A stretch of DNA of 64,000 nucleotides from an uncultured Pseudomonadales bacterium (lineage in GTDB: Bacteria; Pseudomonadota; Gammaproteobacteria; Pseudomonadales; Azotimanducaceae): assembly GCA_958296025.1 (NCBI GenBank), contig OY282430.1, forward strand, positions 1,178,001 to 1,242,000, in the 5' to 3' direction. Of this stretch, positions 19,610 through 25,323 are shown one piece after another. Below the pieces are notes generated by a model. That model was given only the letters and a program-made list of their open reading frames with translations, was not told the DNA's origin and ran no database searches. How positions within the stretch are numbered: the first letter of the stretch is position 1; each line of letters begins with the position of its first letter. Made by a program: the position numbers and the translations under genes.

Positions 19610-20687
19610 TAGATTCAACCCATAAGTGCAACACTTCCTTCGTCAAGGATAGCATCCCGGAACGCCTCCTTGGGGGTTCGGTAGTCCAAGCATTTCCGCG
19701 GGCGGTTGTTGAGCTTGTCGATGGCGGACCGGACCTGCTCCGGGCGCACCTGTGACAGTGGCATGGACTTGGGGAAGTATTGCCGAAGCAGGCCGTTGCC
19801 GTTCTCGTTCGTGCCGCGCTCGCAACTGCGGTAGGGCGTGGCGAAGTAATCCTCGCAGGCCAGCGCCCGCGCCACCCGGACATGGTCGCTGAACTCCCGT
19901 CCATTGTCGTAGGTGATGGTGCGGACCCATTGGGCGATGGGCGAGAGCAGATGCAGCAGGGCATTCGCCGTCTCCAGCTTGGTCTTGCGCATGATCGGAT
20001 GCGCCAGCATGAACCGGGTCTTGCGCTCCGCCAGCGTCACCAGAGCGCCGCGATGTCCCTTGCCGATCACCGTGTCGGCCTCCCAATCGCCCAGCCGGGA
20101 GCGCTCGTCCACCACGGGCGGACGCTCCGATATGTCCGTGCGGCAAGGGATCCGCCCCCGAAAGTCGTTCTTGCCGTAGCGCTTGCGGCGTTTCCTGTGC
20201 GAATGGCGCAGAAAGCGGTGAAGACCTCCGCCGTTGGCCTTGTCCAGCCAGATGCGGCGGTAGATGGCCTCGTGCGACACCGCCGGCATTCCCTCGGCCT
20301 TCATCCGCCCGCTGATCTGCTCCGGGCTCCAGCCGTCCGACAGGCGGGCGTCCACGAAAGCCGCCGCCTCCGGCGTCATCCTGACGCATTTGGGCTTGGC
20401 CTTGAGGCGCTCCCGCGCCTTGCGGTCCGCCTGCTGGTGGCGATAGCCTCGCTGTCCGGCGTTGCGCCTCAACTCGCGGCTGACGGTGCTGTGGCAGCGC
20501 CCCATGCCAGCCGCAATGCTGCGCATGGAGCGGCCCTCCTTGCGCAACGCTTCAATGTGGTATCGTTCCTCTTGGGCCAAGTGGGCGTAGCCTTGCATCT
20601 GCAACTCCTGGGTTTTTGATCGGGCCAAGGATGATGTTACCCCGCTTGGCCCAACAAACTAGGTGTTGCACTTGTGAGTTGAATCTA
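19610..20687. mobile_element. IS30-family insertion sequence
   Basis: About 1078 bp with terminal inverted repeats TAGATTCAAC.CA.AAGTGCAACAC at both ends (26 bp with a few mismatches) around one transposase gene. Outside the element, TATGAAGAC occurs on both sides (19600-19608 and 20695-20703), but 7 bp away from the right end as I draw it, so the exact boundary and target duplication are uncertain. Confidence 0.85.
19615..20598 (-). CDS. IS30-family transposase
   Basis: Intact DDE transposase of about 327 residues. N-terminal helix-turn-helix region (HLAQEERYHIEALRKEGRS; MGRCHSTVSRELRRN) and a second DNA-binding segment (SDGWSPEQISGRM) are characteristic of IS30. Catalytic residues: Asp in LGDWEADTVIGKGH, Asp in TYDNGREFSDH, and Glu in ERGTNENGNGLLRQYFPK. 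ATG 20598 is used; a TTG ten codons earlier is possible. The stop codon lies inside the left terminal repeat. Confidence 0.93.
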   Translation of the reverse strand: MQGYAHLAQEERYHIEALRKEGRSMRSIAAGMGRCHSTVSRELRRNAGQRGYRHQQADRKARERLKAKPKCVRMTPEAAAFVDARLSDGWSPEQISGRMKAEGMPAVSHEAIYRRIWLDKANGGGLHRFLRHSHRKRRKRYGKNDFRGRIPCRTDISERPPVVDERSRLGDWEADTVIGKGHRGALVTLAERKTRFMLAHPIMRKTKLETANALLHLLSPIAQWVRTITYDNGREFSDHVRVARALACEDYFATPYRSCERGTNENGNGLLRQYFPKSMPLSQVRPEQVRSAIDKLNNRPRKCLDYRTPKEAFRDAILDEGSVALMG

Positions 20688-21033
20688 GAAGATCTATGAA
20701 GACTTTGCGTTTTTTTCCGCCTGCCTTTTGGTGTGCCGTTGAGGATGGCTTGCAGGCTGCGCCCGGAGCAAGGCGAAGCATCGGACTTGGCGGCCCGCCC
20801 GCCGCTACTCCAGCAGGTTGGCGCGGCCGTCGTGGGAGGCGAGGCGAAATTCTTGAGGGTTCGCGCAAGAACAGCCAAACTAACGCCCCATTCGGCCAGT
20901 GCGCATGATTGCAGAGCGCGTTTCGCCCGCCCTTGGCGATGGGGTCGGACCTGCCCTTGCCGGCTGCGCCTCGCCGCAGGTCCCGCGCAATGTGCTCATG
21001 GGATGCGAATTGGCTTGGCGGAGCATTGTTGAT
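20688..21033. other. Intergenic region without a recognisable gene
   Basis: 346 bp between the IS30 element and tesB. Open frames here lack homology-like composition. The tesB promoter must be in this stretch or lost to the insertion; no clear -35/-10 pair stands out. Confidence 0.5.
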
Positions 21034-21870
21034 ATGAACATCGGTTTTGCATCCCTGACGACCCTCGAGCGGCTGGGCGATCATGCCTTCCGCGGTCCGC
21101 CCGCCCCAGACAAGGGAGACGCCTTATACGGCGGGCATTTGCTGGCGCAGTGCGTGGTGGCCGCCGCCGCCACTGTCGATGGCGGCCGGCCGGCGCATTC
21201 GCTGCATGCCTACTTCCTACGCCCCGGTGATTCCGATGCGCGGGTGGAGATCGGCATCGAGCGGGTGCGGGATGGGCGCTCCTTTTCCGCCCGGCAGGCC
21301 ATCGCGGTGCAGCACGGCAAGGAGCGCTTCCGCATGATCGCCTCCTTTCAGGCAGCCGAGGAATCGCCCCCCTACAGCGGTGTGCGGATGCCCCAGGCGC
21401 CGCCGCCGGATGCAGTCCGCTTCACCTATGACGATTTCACCTTGGCCGAAACCGGCGCGTCTTTCTGGCACGGAATGGACCGCCCCATGGACATTCGCTA
21501 CGTCAATCCGCCGGCCCGAGGCGAGGCGTCCAGCGCGCCGCAGTTGATGTGGATGCGCATTCGCGAACCCTTGCCGGCGGATGCGATTCTGCATCAAGCC
21601 GGCATCGCCTATCTTTCCGACAGCACCTTGGCGGACAACGCGATGTTGCCGCACGGGCTGCGCTGGCCGGACAGCGACTTCGCCGGCACCAGCCTGGACC
21701 ATGCCATGTGGTTCCATCACCCTGCCAAGGCCGATGCATGGCTGCTGTTTGAACAGACCGTGGTGGTCACCGGCCAAGGGCGCGGCTTGGTGGAGGGAAA
21801 GTTCTTCGACCAAGCGGGTAAACTGGTGGCCAGCTGCGTTCAGGAGGCCTTGATGCGATGGGCGGGATAA
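21034..21870 (+). CDS. tesB: Acyl-CoA thioesterase II (TesB family)
   Basis: Double-hotdog thioesterase hydrolysing acyl-CoA to free fatty acid and CoA. The N-terminal hotdog shows YGGHLLAQCVVAAAATVDG and SLHAYFLRPGD; SFSARQAIAVQHGK follows. The C-terminal hotdog has the catalytic Asp in AYLSDSTL, then SLDHAMWFHHP and GRGLVEGKFFDQAGKLVAS. ATG 21034 gives NIGFASLTTLERLGDH, the usual start. First gene of a three-gene unit: the CULT-domain gene begins 4 bp after its stop. 278 residues, typical. Confidence 0.92.
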   Translation: MNIGFASLTTLERLGDHAFRGPPAPDKGDALYGGHLLAQCVVAAAATVDGGRPAHSLHAYFLRPGDSDARVEIGIERVRDGRSFSARQAIAVQHGKERFRMIASFQAAEESPPYSGVRMPQAPPPDAVRFTYDDFTLAETGASFWHGMDRPMDIRYVNPPARGEASSAPQLMWMRIREPLPADAILHQAGIAYLSDSTLADNAMLPHGLRWPDSDFAGTSLDHAMWFHHPAKADAWLLFEQTVVVTGQGRGLVEGKFFDQAGKLVASCVQEALMRWAG

Positions 21871-21873
21871 GCC

Positions 21874-22269
21874 ATGCCTGAGGTGATCGACGAGCAGCGC
21901 CAAGGGCTGGATCCGGCGCTGGGCCGCCTTCTCGAGCGGCACAAGGAGAGCCGCAAGGACTACATCTACTGCGCCGCCTGCTCCACGGTGATCGGCCGCT
22001 TCGGCGACCGCATCGAAGTCAACGGCGGCCATGAGCACCACTGCGTCAATCCCCACGGGCTGCGCTTCCACATCGGCTGCTTTCGCGAGGCCTTGGGCTG
22101 CGACATCAGCGGTGCGCCGCAGGCGGCGGACTCCTGGTTCATGGGCTTTCGCTGGCGCATCGCCAGTTGCGGGGACTGCAAGCGCCATCTCGGCTGGTAT
22201 TTCGACCGCCCGGACCAAAACTACTTCTACGGCCTGATCCTGAACCGCATCCAATATGACCACGATTGA
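21874..22269 (+). CDS. CULT-domain protein, bacterial cereblon homologue
   Basis: A 131-residue single-domain protein matching the thalidomide-binding CULT fold of eukaryotic cereblon and its Magnetospirillum homologue. Zinc ligands: C33 and C36 (CAAC) with C99 and C102 (CGDC). The aromatic cage that binds cyclic imides and uridine-like ligands is complete: W88 (DSWFMG), W94 (FRW) and W108 (HLGWYF), with Phe110 where the Magnetospirillum protein has Tyr. HEHHCVNPHG and FHIGCF are further family motifs. No Lon or DDB1-binding domain is present, as in other bacterial versions. It is sandwiched tightly between tesB (4-bp gap) and the HAD gene (14-bp overlap), implying a shared function that is not known. 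Confidence 0.88.
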   Translation: MPEVIDEQRQGLDPALGRLLERHKESRKDYIYCAACSTVIGRFGDRIEVNGGHEHHCVNPHGLRFHIGCFREALGCDISGAPQAADSWFMGFRWRIASCGDCKRHLGWYFDRPDQNYFYGLILNRIQYDHD

Positions 22270-22930
22270 CCCGAACCGTTACGCCAGCCTCACGTTCGAC
22301 TGCTATGGCACCCTGATCGACTGGGAGGCCGGCATCCTGGGCTACCTGCAGCCGTTGCTGGCCAACTACGACGTGCATGTCATTGACGAATTCCTGTTGG
22401 AGGCCTTCGCCGAACTGGAGCCGGCGCTGCAGGCCGAGGGCGGTGCCTACCGAGATGTGCTGGCGCGGTTGCTGCAGCGCCTCGGCGAGCGGTTAGCCTT
22501 CCAGCCCAAGCCGGCGGAGCTGGCGGGCTTCGCTGCAAGCATCGCCTACTGGCCGCCGTTTGAGGATGCGGTGGCGGCGCTTGAGGTTCTGGCCGGCCAC
22601 TTTGAGCTGGCGATTGTCTCCAACATCGACGATGCGCTGTTCGCCTTTTCCGCCGAGCGCTTGCAGGTTCCCTTCACCGAGGTCATCACCGCGGAGCAAG
22701 CGCAAGCCTACAAGCCGGATGCCAGGGTGTTTGAACTGGCGCTCCGACGCGTGCAAGGCCCCGTGCTGCATGTGGCGCAGAGCCGCTTTCACGACATCCT
22801 GCCCGCCACTGCCGCCGGACTGGACACCGTGTGGATCAACCGACCCTCCAAGGGGGCGGCCAAACCCGTTGCAGCCAACCCGACCTGGACCTTCACCAGC
22901 ATGGCGGAATTCGCCAACGCGGTGGGCTGA
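22256..22930 (+). CDS. HAD-superfamily hydrolase, type II haloacid dehalogenase-like
   Basis: A 224-residue HAD enzyme. Motif I with nucleophile Asp: LTFDCYGTLIDWE; motif II SNIDD; motif III Lys in AYKPDARVF; motif IV with RFHDILPA. The small alpha-helical cap fits the L-2-haloacid dehalogenase or phosphoglycolate-phosphatase-like group; true substrate unknown. The start ATG overlaps the end of the CULT gene by 14 bp, so the two are translationally coupled. Typical length. Confidence 0.85.
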   Translation: MTTIDPNRYASLTFDCYGTLIDWEAGILGYLQPLLANYDVHVIDEFLLEAFAELEPALQAEGGAYRDVLARLLQRLGERLAFQPKPAELAGFAASIAYWPPFEDAVAALEVLAGHFELAIVSNIDDALFAFSAERLQVPFTEVITAEQAQAYKPDARVFELALRRVQGPVLHVAQSRFHDILPATAAGLDTVWINRPSKGAAKPVAANPTWTFTSMAEFANAVG

Positions 22931-23085
22931 GCGGTGCCGGCGCAGACTCCAAGGACCCTAAGGCTAAAATGACGATGCCCGACAAAATCCCGTCCGTTTG
23001 GGTGCGCGCCGGCTGGCCGCGCCGGTCGGCAGCGCCGCAAGAACCACCGTACGCATGGGCCGGCGCAACGGTGGCGCGTTGACCG

Positions 23086-23577
23086 ATGGCGACCAAAGCG
23101 CTCACCACCATAGAAGTTTGCAAGGAGGCGCTGCACTTCGCTGCCGCCCACTTCACCCTGTTCTCCGCCACGCAACGGGAGAACCTGCACGGCCACAACT
23201 TCAACGTGCAGCTGGAGGTGGACGCCGAAGTGGGTGCCGATGGCTTGGCCTTTGACTACAACATCCTCAAGCGGGTGTTGCAGGCCCTGTGCGATCGGCT
23301 CGACGAGCATGTGCTGCTGCCGGAGCGCTCCCCACACTTGCGCATCGTGGAGGATGGAGGGTATCGAGTGGCGTTGTTCAATGGGGAGCGCATCCCGTTC
23401 CTGCCCCGGGATGTGCTGACGCTGCCGGTCAGCAACATTACCGTGGAGGCGTTGGCGACCTGGATTTTGCAGGAATTGCGGGGCGACCCCGCCTTGGCGG
23501 GCTTGGGCATCCAGCGTTGGATGGTCAAGGTTTCCTCGGGCCCCGGCCAGTGGGCGCGGGTACAGTGGCAGGCTTGA
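23086..23577 (+). CDS. 6-pyruvoyltetrahydropterin synthase family protein, PTPS-III-like
   Basis: A 163-residue T-fold enzyme. Zinc histidines are in HFAAAHFT and in the HGH of ENLHGHNFNV. The motif around the active site is ExxHGH (ENLHGH): the catalytic Cys four residues before HGH in QueD is Arg here. ExxHGH is the mark of PTPS-III, which makes 6-hydroxymethyl-dihydropterin from dihydroneopterin triphosphate and replaces FolB in folate synthesis. The C-terminal VSSGPGQWARVQW matches the family's E/G region loosely. Folate rather than queuosine is thus inferred. An SDR follows at 23768. Confidence 0.8.
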   Translation: MATKALTTIEVCKEALHFAAAHFTLFSATQRENLHGHNFNVQLEVDAEVGADGLAFDYNILKRVLQALCDRLDEHVLLPERSPHLRIVEDGGYRVALFNGERIPFLPRDVLTLPVSNITVEALATWILQELRGDPALAGLGIQRWMVKVSSGPGQWARVQWQA

Positions 23578-23741
23578 CTTGGGGCGCCGAAGTGGCCGGC
23601 GGCGTTGGGGAATAATCCCGATGCGTGCGTGAACGACAGGCTGTCCGCGGGACGCCCCTGACTGCCGCCGCCGGGACCTCATTGGAGAATCTGCAGGCAT
23701 GAACGGAATGACCGACGAGATTGCTGTGTGGTTGGCGAGAG

Positions 23742-23758
23742 GCGGGACAGGACACTAG
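23742..23758. repeat. Solo terminal repeat of the TGTCCTGTC MITE
   Basis: GCGGGACAGGACACTAG is an exact match to the inverted terminus of the element, including the CTAG flank, but no second end is present nearby. It sits 9 bp before the SDR start codon, so it contributes the SDR leader. Confidence 0.6.
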
Positions 23759-23767
23759 GAAATAGCC

Positions 23768-24463
23768 GTGAAAACGCTCATCATCACCGGCGCCAGCGCC
23801 GGCATTGGCTTGGCGACGGCGCGGCGCTTTGCCGCGTCGGGCTGGGCGGTCACCAACATCTCCCGACGTCCCTGCCCCCTTGAGGGGGTCAACCATCTGC
23901 GGGGCGACCTGTCTGCGCCGGGCTTTTTGGATGCGCTGCGCAAACCCTTGAGCGTCGCCCTGCAGGGGGCGGATGCGGTGGCGCTTATCCACAATGCCTC
24001 TCGTCTGCTGAACGATAGCGCCGCAGACACGTCCAGCGAGCAGTTGCGGGCGGTCTTTGAAGTCAATCTAGTGGCGGTCAACGCCCTGAACCGCCTCGCC
24101 ATTGCATGGATGCCGTCCGGTTCCGCCATTCTCTACGTTGGCTCCACCTTGGCGGAGAAAGCGGTGCCCAACAGCTACTCCTATGTGGTCAGCAAGCACG
24201 CCTTAGTGGGCATGATGCGGGCCACCTGCCAGGATCTGGTCGGGCGCGGCATCCACACCGCCTGCATCTGCCCCGGCTTCACGGACACGGAAATGCTGCG
24301 CGCCCATGTCCCGGCGCAGGCCATGCCTTCGGTGGCCGGGATGTCCGCCTACGGCCGGCTGATCGAGCCGGAGGAAATTGCCGAAACCCTCTTTTGGGCC
24401 GCGGTCAACCCGGTCATCAACGGTGCCGTTCTGCACGCCAATCTGGGACAGGTGGAGCGATAA
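23768..24463 (+). CDS. Short-chain dehydrogenase/reductase, possibly pteridine reductase-like
   Basis: A 231-residue classical SDR. Cofactor motif TGASAGIG at the N-terminus; NAS in LIHNASRLL; catalytic Ser in YVGSTLAEK; YSYVVSKHA gives Tyr-x-x-x-Lys; PGFTDTEML follows. Start is GTG 23768, with the MITE end just upstream. The preceding pterin enzyme suggests reduction of a pterin (sepiapterin-, FolM- or PTR1-like), but SDR substrate cannot be read from sequence. Convergent with yhhQ. Confidence 0.82.
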   Translation: MKTLIITGASAGIGLATARRFAASGWAVTNISRRPCPLEGVNHLRGDLSAPGFLDALRKPLSVALQGADAVALIHNASRLLNDSAADTSSEQLRAVFEVNLVAVNALNRLAIAWMPSGSAILYVGSTLAEKAVPNSYSYVVSKHALVGMMRATCQDLVGRGIHTACICPGFTDTEMLRAHVPAQAMPSVAGMSAYGRLIEPEEIAETLFWAAVNPVINGAVLHANLGQVER

Positions 24464-24528
24464 GCCTGCAGTGAAGCAACGCGCCATCCCTAGCCGCCGC
24501 AAGCCCGCCTTGGGCGATTGCGCTCGGA

Positions 24529-25323
24529 CTATCCGTCGGTCGCCTCCCCGTCGGGGCGCAGCCCCAAGTAAGGGCGCAGCCATCCGACGCAAAGGTAAGC
24601 CGGACCGGTGTCCAGCGCCGCCATCACCACCTTGAACACATAGCCGGAGAGGATGAAGACCAGCAATTGCGGCGCTAGGGCCGCTTCCGGGTCTATCGGC
24701 AGCACCCCGGCGTAGAAGTGGGTGATGAGGATCACCGCCGTGGTGTCCAGGATCTGGCTGGTCATGGTGGAGGCGTTGTTGCGCAGCCAGAGATGCCGAC
24801 CGGCGGTGACCTTTTTCCAGAAATGGAACAGCCGCACGTCGCAAAGCTGCGCCGCCAAGTAGGCGATCACGGAGGCCGCCACCGCGCCGAAGGCCAGTTC
24901 CCGAATCTCGAAGAACACCGGCAGGCGCCCGGCGGCGTCCCGCTCCGGTAGGCCGGTGGCCAGATCCATCGGCTCGGTGCCGGGCAGCACCCCGCCCAGC
25001 CACAGCAGGAAGATCACCCAGCCGTTCAGCAACATGCCCACCCAAACCATGTCCCGGGCCTTCTTCTCGCCGAACAGCTCGCTGATGAGGTCCGTGCAGA
25101 GAAAAGTGATGGGGTAGGGCAGCACCCCCACCGCCACCAGCATGGGGATGCTGAGGCCGAACAGATCGAAGGACAGATCAACAAAGCGGCTAATGCCCAG
25201 CACGTTCAATAGGGAAAGGGTGCCAAGAAAGACGCCGGAGAGGACCAGGTACACTCGTTGCCGCCGCTTCTCGTAGTTAGGCGGCGTCTGCGTTGGTCTG
25301 GTTGCTAATTGATCTGCCGACAC
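24529..25323 (-). CDS. yhhQ: Queuosine precursor transporter, YhhQ/VUT family
   Basis: A 264-residue inner-membrane protein with about six to seven helices, with LLVAVGVLPYPITFL-type pattern (MLVAVGVLPYPITFLCTDL), ELFGEKKARDMVWVG, and SVIAYLAAQLCDVRLFHFWK, which are diagnostic. YhhQ imports preQ0/preQ1 for queuosine modification of tRNA. Start is GTG 25323 (SADQLATRPTQ); no better start was seen. Convergent with the pterin SDR. Because the nearby PTPS looks like a folate type, the adjacency may not mean shared function. Confidence 0.87.
   Translation of the reverse strand: MSADQLATRPTQTPPNYEKRRQRVYLVLSGVFLGTLSLLNVLGISRFVDLSFDLFGLSIPMLVAVGVLPYPITFLCTDLISELFGEKKARDMVWVGMLLNGWVIFLLWLGGVLPGTEPMDLATGLPERDAAGRLPVFFEIRELAFGAVAASVIAYLAAQLCDVRLFHFWKKVTAGRHLWLRNNASTMTSQILDTTAVILITHFYAGVLPIDPEAALAPQLLVFILSGYVFKVVMAALDTGPAYLCVGWLRPYLGLRPDGEATDG

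Follow-up and report, generated by a model that had tools for sequence, protein, structure and literature searches.

Results

A CULT gene lies between a thioesterase gene and an overlapping hydrolase gene

In the window (the whole stretch of 64,000 nt that was analysed, from an uncultured bacterium of the family Azotimanducaceae), we found a gene for a small CULT-domain protein that is preceded by a TesB-family thioesterase gene and followed by a gene for a hydrolase of the HAD superfamily, with PTPS, SDR and VUT family genes further downstream (Table 1). The TesB stop codon ends at 21870 and the CULT ATG is at 21874, which leaves a gap of 3 nt rather than the 4 bp given in a first-pass annotation of this DNA; with so short a gap, TesB is probably in the same transcript as CULT. 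The CULT and HAD frames overlap by 14 nt (22256–22269), as that annotation had reported, and the same-strand gaps beyond HAD are 155 nt (HAD to PTPS) and 190 nt (PTPS to SDR). The transposase-like gene upstream of TesB may bear on the placement of TesB here. A promoter and terminator scan of 20650–24600 returned no promoter-like site and one terminator-like site, no more than shuffled sequences did.

Table 1. Genes at the CULT locus, in window positions
Feature	Position	Strand	Remark
Transposase-like gene	19615-20628	-	HTH_38 over Pfam cut-off, integrase core under cut-off
TesB-family acyl-CoA thioesterase	21034..21870	+	Seen beside CULT only in some members of the window genus
CULT-domain (cereblon-type) protein	21874..22269	+	131 aa; W88/W94/W108, Cys 33/36/99/102, N59-P60 hairpin
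HAD-superfamily C-X hydrolase (haloacid dehalogenase type II / azetidine-2-carboxylate hydrolase-like)	22256..22930	+	CULT-linked clade
PTPS family enzyme	23086..23577	+	ExxHGH (PTPS-III, folate) motif; sole PTPS match in genome
Short-chain dehydrogenase (SDR)	23768..24463	+	Syntenic with PTPS, CULT present or not
VUT family (PF02592, putative vitamin uptake transporter)	24529..25323	-	Adjoins SDR, neighbours the PTPS-SDR block

The CULT protein carries the cereblon-type pocket

The best PDB match of the window CULT protein in a phmmer search is Magnetospirillum MsCI4 ("cereblon isoform 4", E 6.5e-21), and vertebrate cereblon matches with E values of about 1e-9 and weaker. Pfam gave only sub-threshold matches, to Yippee-Mis18 (21.4 bits, cut-off 26.6) and to SelR (15.8 bits, cut-off 24.9), so that no profile assigned the protein to another zinc-ribbon family and the identity proposed in the first-pass annotation stands. 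The three cage tryptophans (W88, W94 and W108) and two CxxC motifs with putative zinc cysteines (C33/C36 and C99/C102) are present at the positions given there, and the protein also has an NPxG hairpin tip (N59-P60-H61-G62), which excerpts of the MsCI4 study name as a CULT motif (PMC4449219). Structure modelling, which had been proposed as a check, agrees: an AF2 model built from 23 homologues has a mean pLDDT of 85.3, with blocks within residues 31–130 at 90–98 and low confidence at residues 1–30 and at the very end, and its top Foldseek matches are MsCI4 entries (E about 1e-10, TM by target about 0.85–0.92). As modelled, the window CULT protein has the beta-tent fold of MsCI4.

We aligned 157 CULT rows (155 fetched loci, the window and MsCI4; some species appear twice, and 152 rows differ) and found hardly any variation at the cage and zinc residues. 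N59 is present in all 157 rows, the three tryptophans are present in 156 with a gap in the remaining row, and C33, C36, C99 and C102 are each present in 156. Residue 86 (window 22129–22131), at the pocket edge before the first cage Ser/Thr-Trp, is Asp in 76 of the 157 rows including the window, His in 32 and Phe in 26, and is Phe in MsCI4.

The linked hydrolase resembles haloacid dehalogenases and belongs to one clade

The closest solved relatives of the HAD protein are (S)-2-haloacid dehalogenases (E 1.7e-39), and one set of these closest structures is also titled L-azetidine-2-carboxylate hydrolase. Its predicted catalytic set is D15 (in motif I, DCYGT), T19, S122-N123, K153 and D180; when we aligned the CULT-linked HADs (L091 left out), D15, T19, N123, K153, S176 and D180 were invariant. 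The window protein scores 109.9 bits against NCBIfam TIGR01428 (haloacid dehalogenase type II, equivalog), under the 125.4-bit cut-off, and a relative, at 122.6 bits, is also under it. HAD phosphatases have a second Asp in motif I. We rejected a phosphatase or nucleotidase assignment on the basis of the motif, which is without that residue, and of the nearest structures; of the earlier "phosphatase/dehalogenase-like" description, it is the dehalogenase half that fits better.

More distant HADs were found in 12 genomes besides that of the window in a class sample of 369 genomes (cut-off 1e-18; 31–46% identity, at most 152 bits). CULT also occurs in two of the 12 (G317 and G437), at a site separate from the HAD. 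Over the matched part, three of the free HADs in this sample have 45–46% identity (136–152 bits), and identity alone therefore does not separate CULT-linked from free HADs. A quick tree groups the 41 CULT-linked HADs in a single clade (support 100*) and leaves 13 others outside it (the 12 from the class sample and PDB 3smv); the clade sits on a long branch, of a kind about which the tree tool warns. "CULT-linked" in this tree means any HAD match inside a CULT locus, from –10 to +2220 nt; the broken HAD of L050 was left out by name, and L055, L232 and L238 by threshold (weaker than 1e-20).

CULT and HAD occur together in the window family

To count pairs, we scored a HAD orthologue at 188.9 bits or more, which gives 44 of 145 sampled family genomes. 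The next match below (G1010: 121.5 bits, 40%, with CULT on a different contig) was not counted, nor were weaker matches or the broken copies in G019 and G024. We found that 43 genomes have both CULT and HAD, 29 have CULT only, one has HAD only and 72 have neither (Fisher p 2.7e-16 for these kin genomes, kinship not corrected). CULT is thus present in 43 of the 44 HAD-bearing genomes and in 72 of the 145 overall. Both genes lie on the same contig and strand in 42 of the 43 genomes, and in 39 of these 42 HAD is downstream of CULT at 136 nt or less, match to match. The remaining genome (G1041) has the two genes on different contigs, with the CULT contig ending about 400 nt past the gene, and was counted for co-occurrence and not for distance. 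The recurrence of HAD beside CULT, which the first-pass annotation had put forward as a sign of function, is therefore borne out within the family.

A set of 58 relatives gave the same picture: an intact HAD orthologue (48–100% identity) is present in 15 genomes, all of which have CULT, two more genomes have a broken HAD beside CULT, and no HAD orthologue was found in the CULT-less genomes among the 58. The gaps between first-start ORFs recur at –14, –26, –8 and –4 nt, and the pair may often be translationally coupled.

The description of the operon as "locked" was too strong. CULT is kept where we found no intact HAD orthologue in 29 of the 72 family CULT genomes, some of which are incomplete assemblies and two of which (G019 and G024) have broken copies. 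Because CULT often persists without HAD, it probably has a function on its own or with some other enzyme as well. At two loci, L050 and L055, HAD lies in pieces downstream of an intact CULT, which is decay of HAD with CULT kept. The sole HAD-only family genome is G1030 (L330, whose sequence has unread bases), where a ferredoxin reductase gene adjoins HAD with no CULT between them.

One reading of these data is that the pairing is inherited gene order with no shared function. Every linked pair for which we have a family label belongs to a single bacterial family, and by genus HAD is found in 9 of the 24 CULT-bearing genera, with 9 of 9 in four genera; because the patterns follow genera, the genomes greatly outnumber the independent events. 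When context was mapped on a CULT tree (157 rows, 139 columns), the tree was poorly resolved, and on it the HAD label requires 19 changes, of which at least 6 are forced. However, CULT and HAD stay together while both flanks change: upstream there may be TesB, a ferredoxin reductase, an Anbu protease or another gene, and downstream PTPS or other genes. The overlapping or near-overlapping frames recur, and only one genome was found to carry a HAD of this clade but no CULT. We therefore regard inherited order without shared function as unlikely, and consider that CULT and HAD probably serve the same process.

A protease gene adjoins the pair in one branch

At eight loci (L100, L101, L102, L104, L105, L107, L108 and L111), a gene for Anbu, a proteasome-like protease, lies directly upstream of CULT-HAD (Anbu of L104 against PDB 5loy: E 3e-68). 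This arrangement makes a relative of the proteasome the neighbour of a cereblon-type domain. Coordinate matching places L105, L107 and L108 in one genus of the window family (g8).

These loci bear on the idea that CULT, like cereblon, recognises damaged proteins or peptides by their C-terminal cyclic imides and passes them on to proteolysis. Cereblon binds such imides (PMC13001092). In addition, a member of the homologue cluster whose representative is an M24 metallopeptidase lies close to CULT, on the opposite strand, at 20 of 81 CULT loci (the window and the best 80 of 121 relatives in a scan of named genomes, with homologous neighbours clustered; these 81 loci are used below). However, Anbu directly upstream of CULT-HAD looks like an arrangement of one branch, and we give it little weight; the sole other Anbu seen (L237) is 3.9 kb from CULT, in another family. 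Among the window genes run through Pfam there is no protease, and we know of no part played by this type of HAD in proteolysis. A role in damaged-protein recognition is thus quite unlikely.

PTPS and SDR are neighbours that persist without CULT

At the 81 loci, HAD is present at 36, a ferredoxin-reductase-like gene at 51, SDR at 54 (a cluster that includes a few paralogues), PTPS at 52 and VUT at 37. A frequent gene order is reductase-CULT-(HAD)-PTPS-SDR-VUT, and other genes, many of them on the opposite strand, often lie between reductase and CULT. By these counts PTPS and SDR, which also occur at loci without HAD, were at first the strongest candidates for a true CULT partner, and CULT could then be part of a pterin/folate block, with a PTPS and SDR product, a pterin or lumazine, as its ligand. 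Pterins have an N3-H/C4=O edge. The window PTPS contains RENLHGH, which is an ExxHGH motif, with no CxxxHGH and without the catalytic Cys, and its best PDB match is the Plasmodium PTPS (2a0s, E 4e-19). In excerpts of the published work, ExxHGH without CxxxHGH marks PTPS-III, the folate type (PMC5041015). A search for FolB found none in the window genome and none in seven of its eight congeners, so PTPS may be the pterin source; PTPS-III together with the missing FolB suggests a folate bypass that is independent of CULT.

However, 9 of the 11 CULT-less family genomes among the 58 relatives retain PTPS, and in the nine CULT-less regions that we read, PTPS, SDR and VUT stand together without CULT or HAD. 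Among the 26 family CULT genomes of the same set, PTPS is elsewhere in three and absent from one. No convincing CULT remnant was found in 12 PTPS regions without an adjacent CULT (best E 0.18). Since PTPS and SDR persist without CULT, their link to it looks positional, and we demoted them as partners; CULT presence is tracked by HAD, not by PTPS. A pterin-binding role accordingly has a poor chance of being right, a little below that of damaged-protein recognition, and PTPS and SDR are neighbours, not needed parts of a CULT-HAD unit.

CULT neighbours vary freely outside the window family

CULT is patchy in its distribution: it was found in 31 of the 58 relatives, in 37 of 194 genomes of the order, in 29 of 369 of the class and in 21 of 398 of the phylum, in addition to the family count given above (the window genome is part of every count, and for order, class, phylum and family the genomes are samples of larger groups). 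We read 75 further regions, all but five of which are from other families; the 81 loci, the 75 regions and the relatives overlap, with some of the same species under other names. No universal CULT neighbour was found across the sampled phylum, and the 75 regions show no general partner. The first-pass annotation had held that freely varying neighbours would speak against a functional link; outside the window family the neighbours do vary freely, but within it CULT-HAD recurs.

In 11 of the 75 regions, from five other families of the order, an RluA-type pseudouridine synthase gene is directly downstream of CULT (L191, L196, L197, L198, L200, L204, L205, L208, L210, L211 and L213; RluA identity was checked on the L200 copy), and other genes follow CULT less often. 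RNA-methyltransferase, SpoU and MiaB-like genes are near some CULT loci. These neighbours would suit a CULT protein that recognises free uridine, uracil or pseudouridine released when RNA is turned over or modified. RluA enzymes are common, so that adjacency alone is weak support, and it was not seen downstream of CULT in the window family. Excerpts of the MsCI4 study report low-micromolar uridine binding, although in the same excerpts its authors had not found a biological context for uridine (PMC4449219). We consider uridine recognition very unlikely as the function of the window protein.

TesB is a local companion

The window TesB scores 223.1 bits against TIGR00189 (the TesB equivalog), under its cut-off of 292.85, while its Pfam thioesterase domains exceed their cut-offs. 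We rejected TesB as a CULT partner: it is upstream of CULT in 6 of the 81 loci, all in the window genus, and was not found at the other 75, some of which have short upstream flanks. At the congener locus L037, a ferredoxin reductase gene takes its place. That TesB, CULT and HAD work jointly in acyl-CoA or nucleotide turnover, as first proposed from the close spacing in the window (the 3-nt gap and the 14-nt overlap) and consistent with those six loci, is scarcely credible given that the other five TesB-CULT gaps are 63 to 708 nt, that TesB is unlinked in most sister genera of this sample that have an intact CULT-HAD pair, and that the HAD motif differs from that of phosphatases. With TesB not a recurring partner, there is little case for acyl-CoA turnover, and TesB, like PTPS and SDR, is not a needed part of the CULT-HAD unit.

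Discussion

Taken together, these data make it about an even call that CULT and HAD form a two-gene functional unit in the window family, in which CULT would be the binding or delivery part and HAD would act on the ligand. The tryptophan cage of CULT may capture a ring with a C(=O)-NH edge (a cyclic imide, a lactam or a uracil-like ring). HAD belongs to a type of nucleophilic-Asp hydrolase that breaks C-X or C-N bonds, and could then act on the CULT-bound molecule or a close product. CULT may, as the first-pass annotation suggested, serve to sense or present a small cyclic metabolite. A ring-binding CULT paired with a C-X/C-N hydrolase would agree with what the MsCI4 cage is known to bind and with the reactions known for HADs of this type. 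Uridine and thalidomide are ligands of MsCI4, according to excerpts of the study (PMC4449219), and solved MsCI4 complexes include valerolactam and deoxyuridine, according to their entry titles. This ring-ligand mechanism is tentative, and we would sooner doubt it than rely on it: azetidine-2-carboxylate is not an imide, and the use of the CULT ligand by HAD is our proposal. What the data show is the family and pocket of CULT, the family and catalytic set of HAD, and the linkage, co-occurrence and single HAD clade of the pair, whereas a shared substrate, complex formation and ring chemistry are what we infer. More speculative again is a CULT-HAD module that works on a natural cyclic imide or lactam: the thalidomide pocket would capture it and the dehalogenase-type hydrolase would open or dehalogenate it, with Anbu joining in one branch as an echo of the eukaryotic cereblon-proteasome link.

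The thalidomide-binding domain of human cereblon occurs here as a small stand-alone bacterial protein, and the recurring hydrolase, unlike TesB, provides a handle on what CULT does in bacteria. A co-inherited hydrolase narrows the search, as screens for HAD substrates and for CULT ligands can be checked against each other, and a match, if found, would reveal what class of natural ligand fits a pocket that is used in many drugs. We found no paper that ties bacterial CULT to an operon or to a HAD in the open-licence PMC literature; by that search, what is new is the HAD partner, not the CULT domain.

Comparison with known systems

The window CULT protein most resembles MsCI4 (MGR_0879 of Magnetospirillum gryphiswaldense, PDB 4V2Y), its best match in both sequence and fold, with 36–39% identity in the best structural matches. 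Both have a single CULT domain, the tryptophan cage, two CxxC motifs and the N-P hairpin; they differ at the residue before the cage S-W, which is Asp86 in the window protein and Phe in MsCI4. The CULT domain of human cereblon is the same domain with the same cage; in contrast, the window protein stands alone at 131 aa, with no room for a LON or DDB1-binding part. The window PTPS shares ExxHGH with PTPS-III and the Plasmodium PTPS, but is bacterial and lies beside SDR and a VUT-family gene. The HAD protein has the same catalytic residues as (S)-2-haloacid dehalogenase/L-azetidine-2-carboxylate hydrolase (PDB 3smv, 8ywo and 9v14); in the tree, the CULT-linked HADs are a clade of their own, set off by a long branch.
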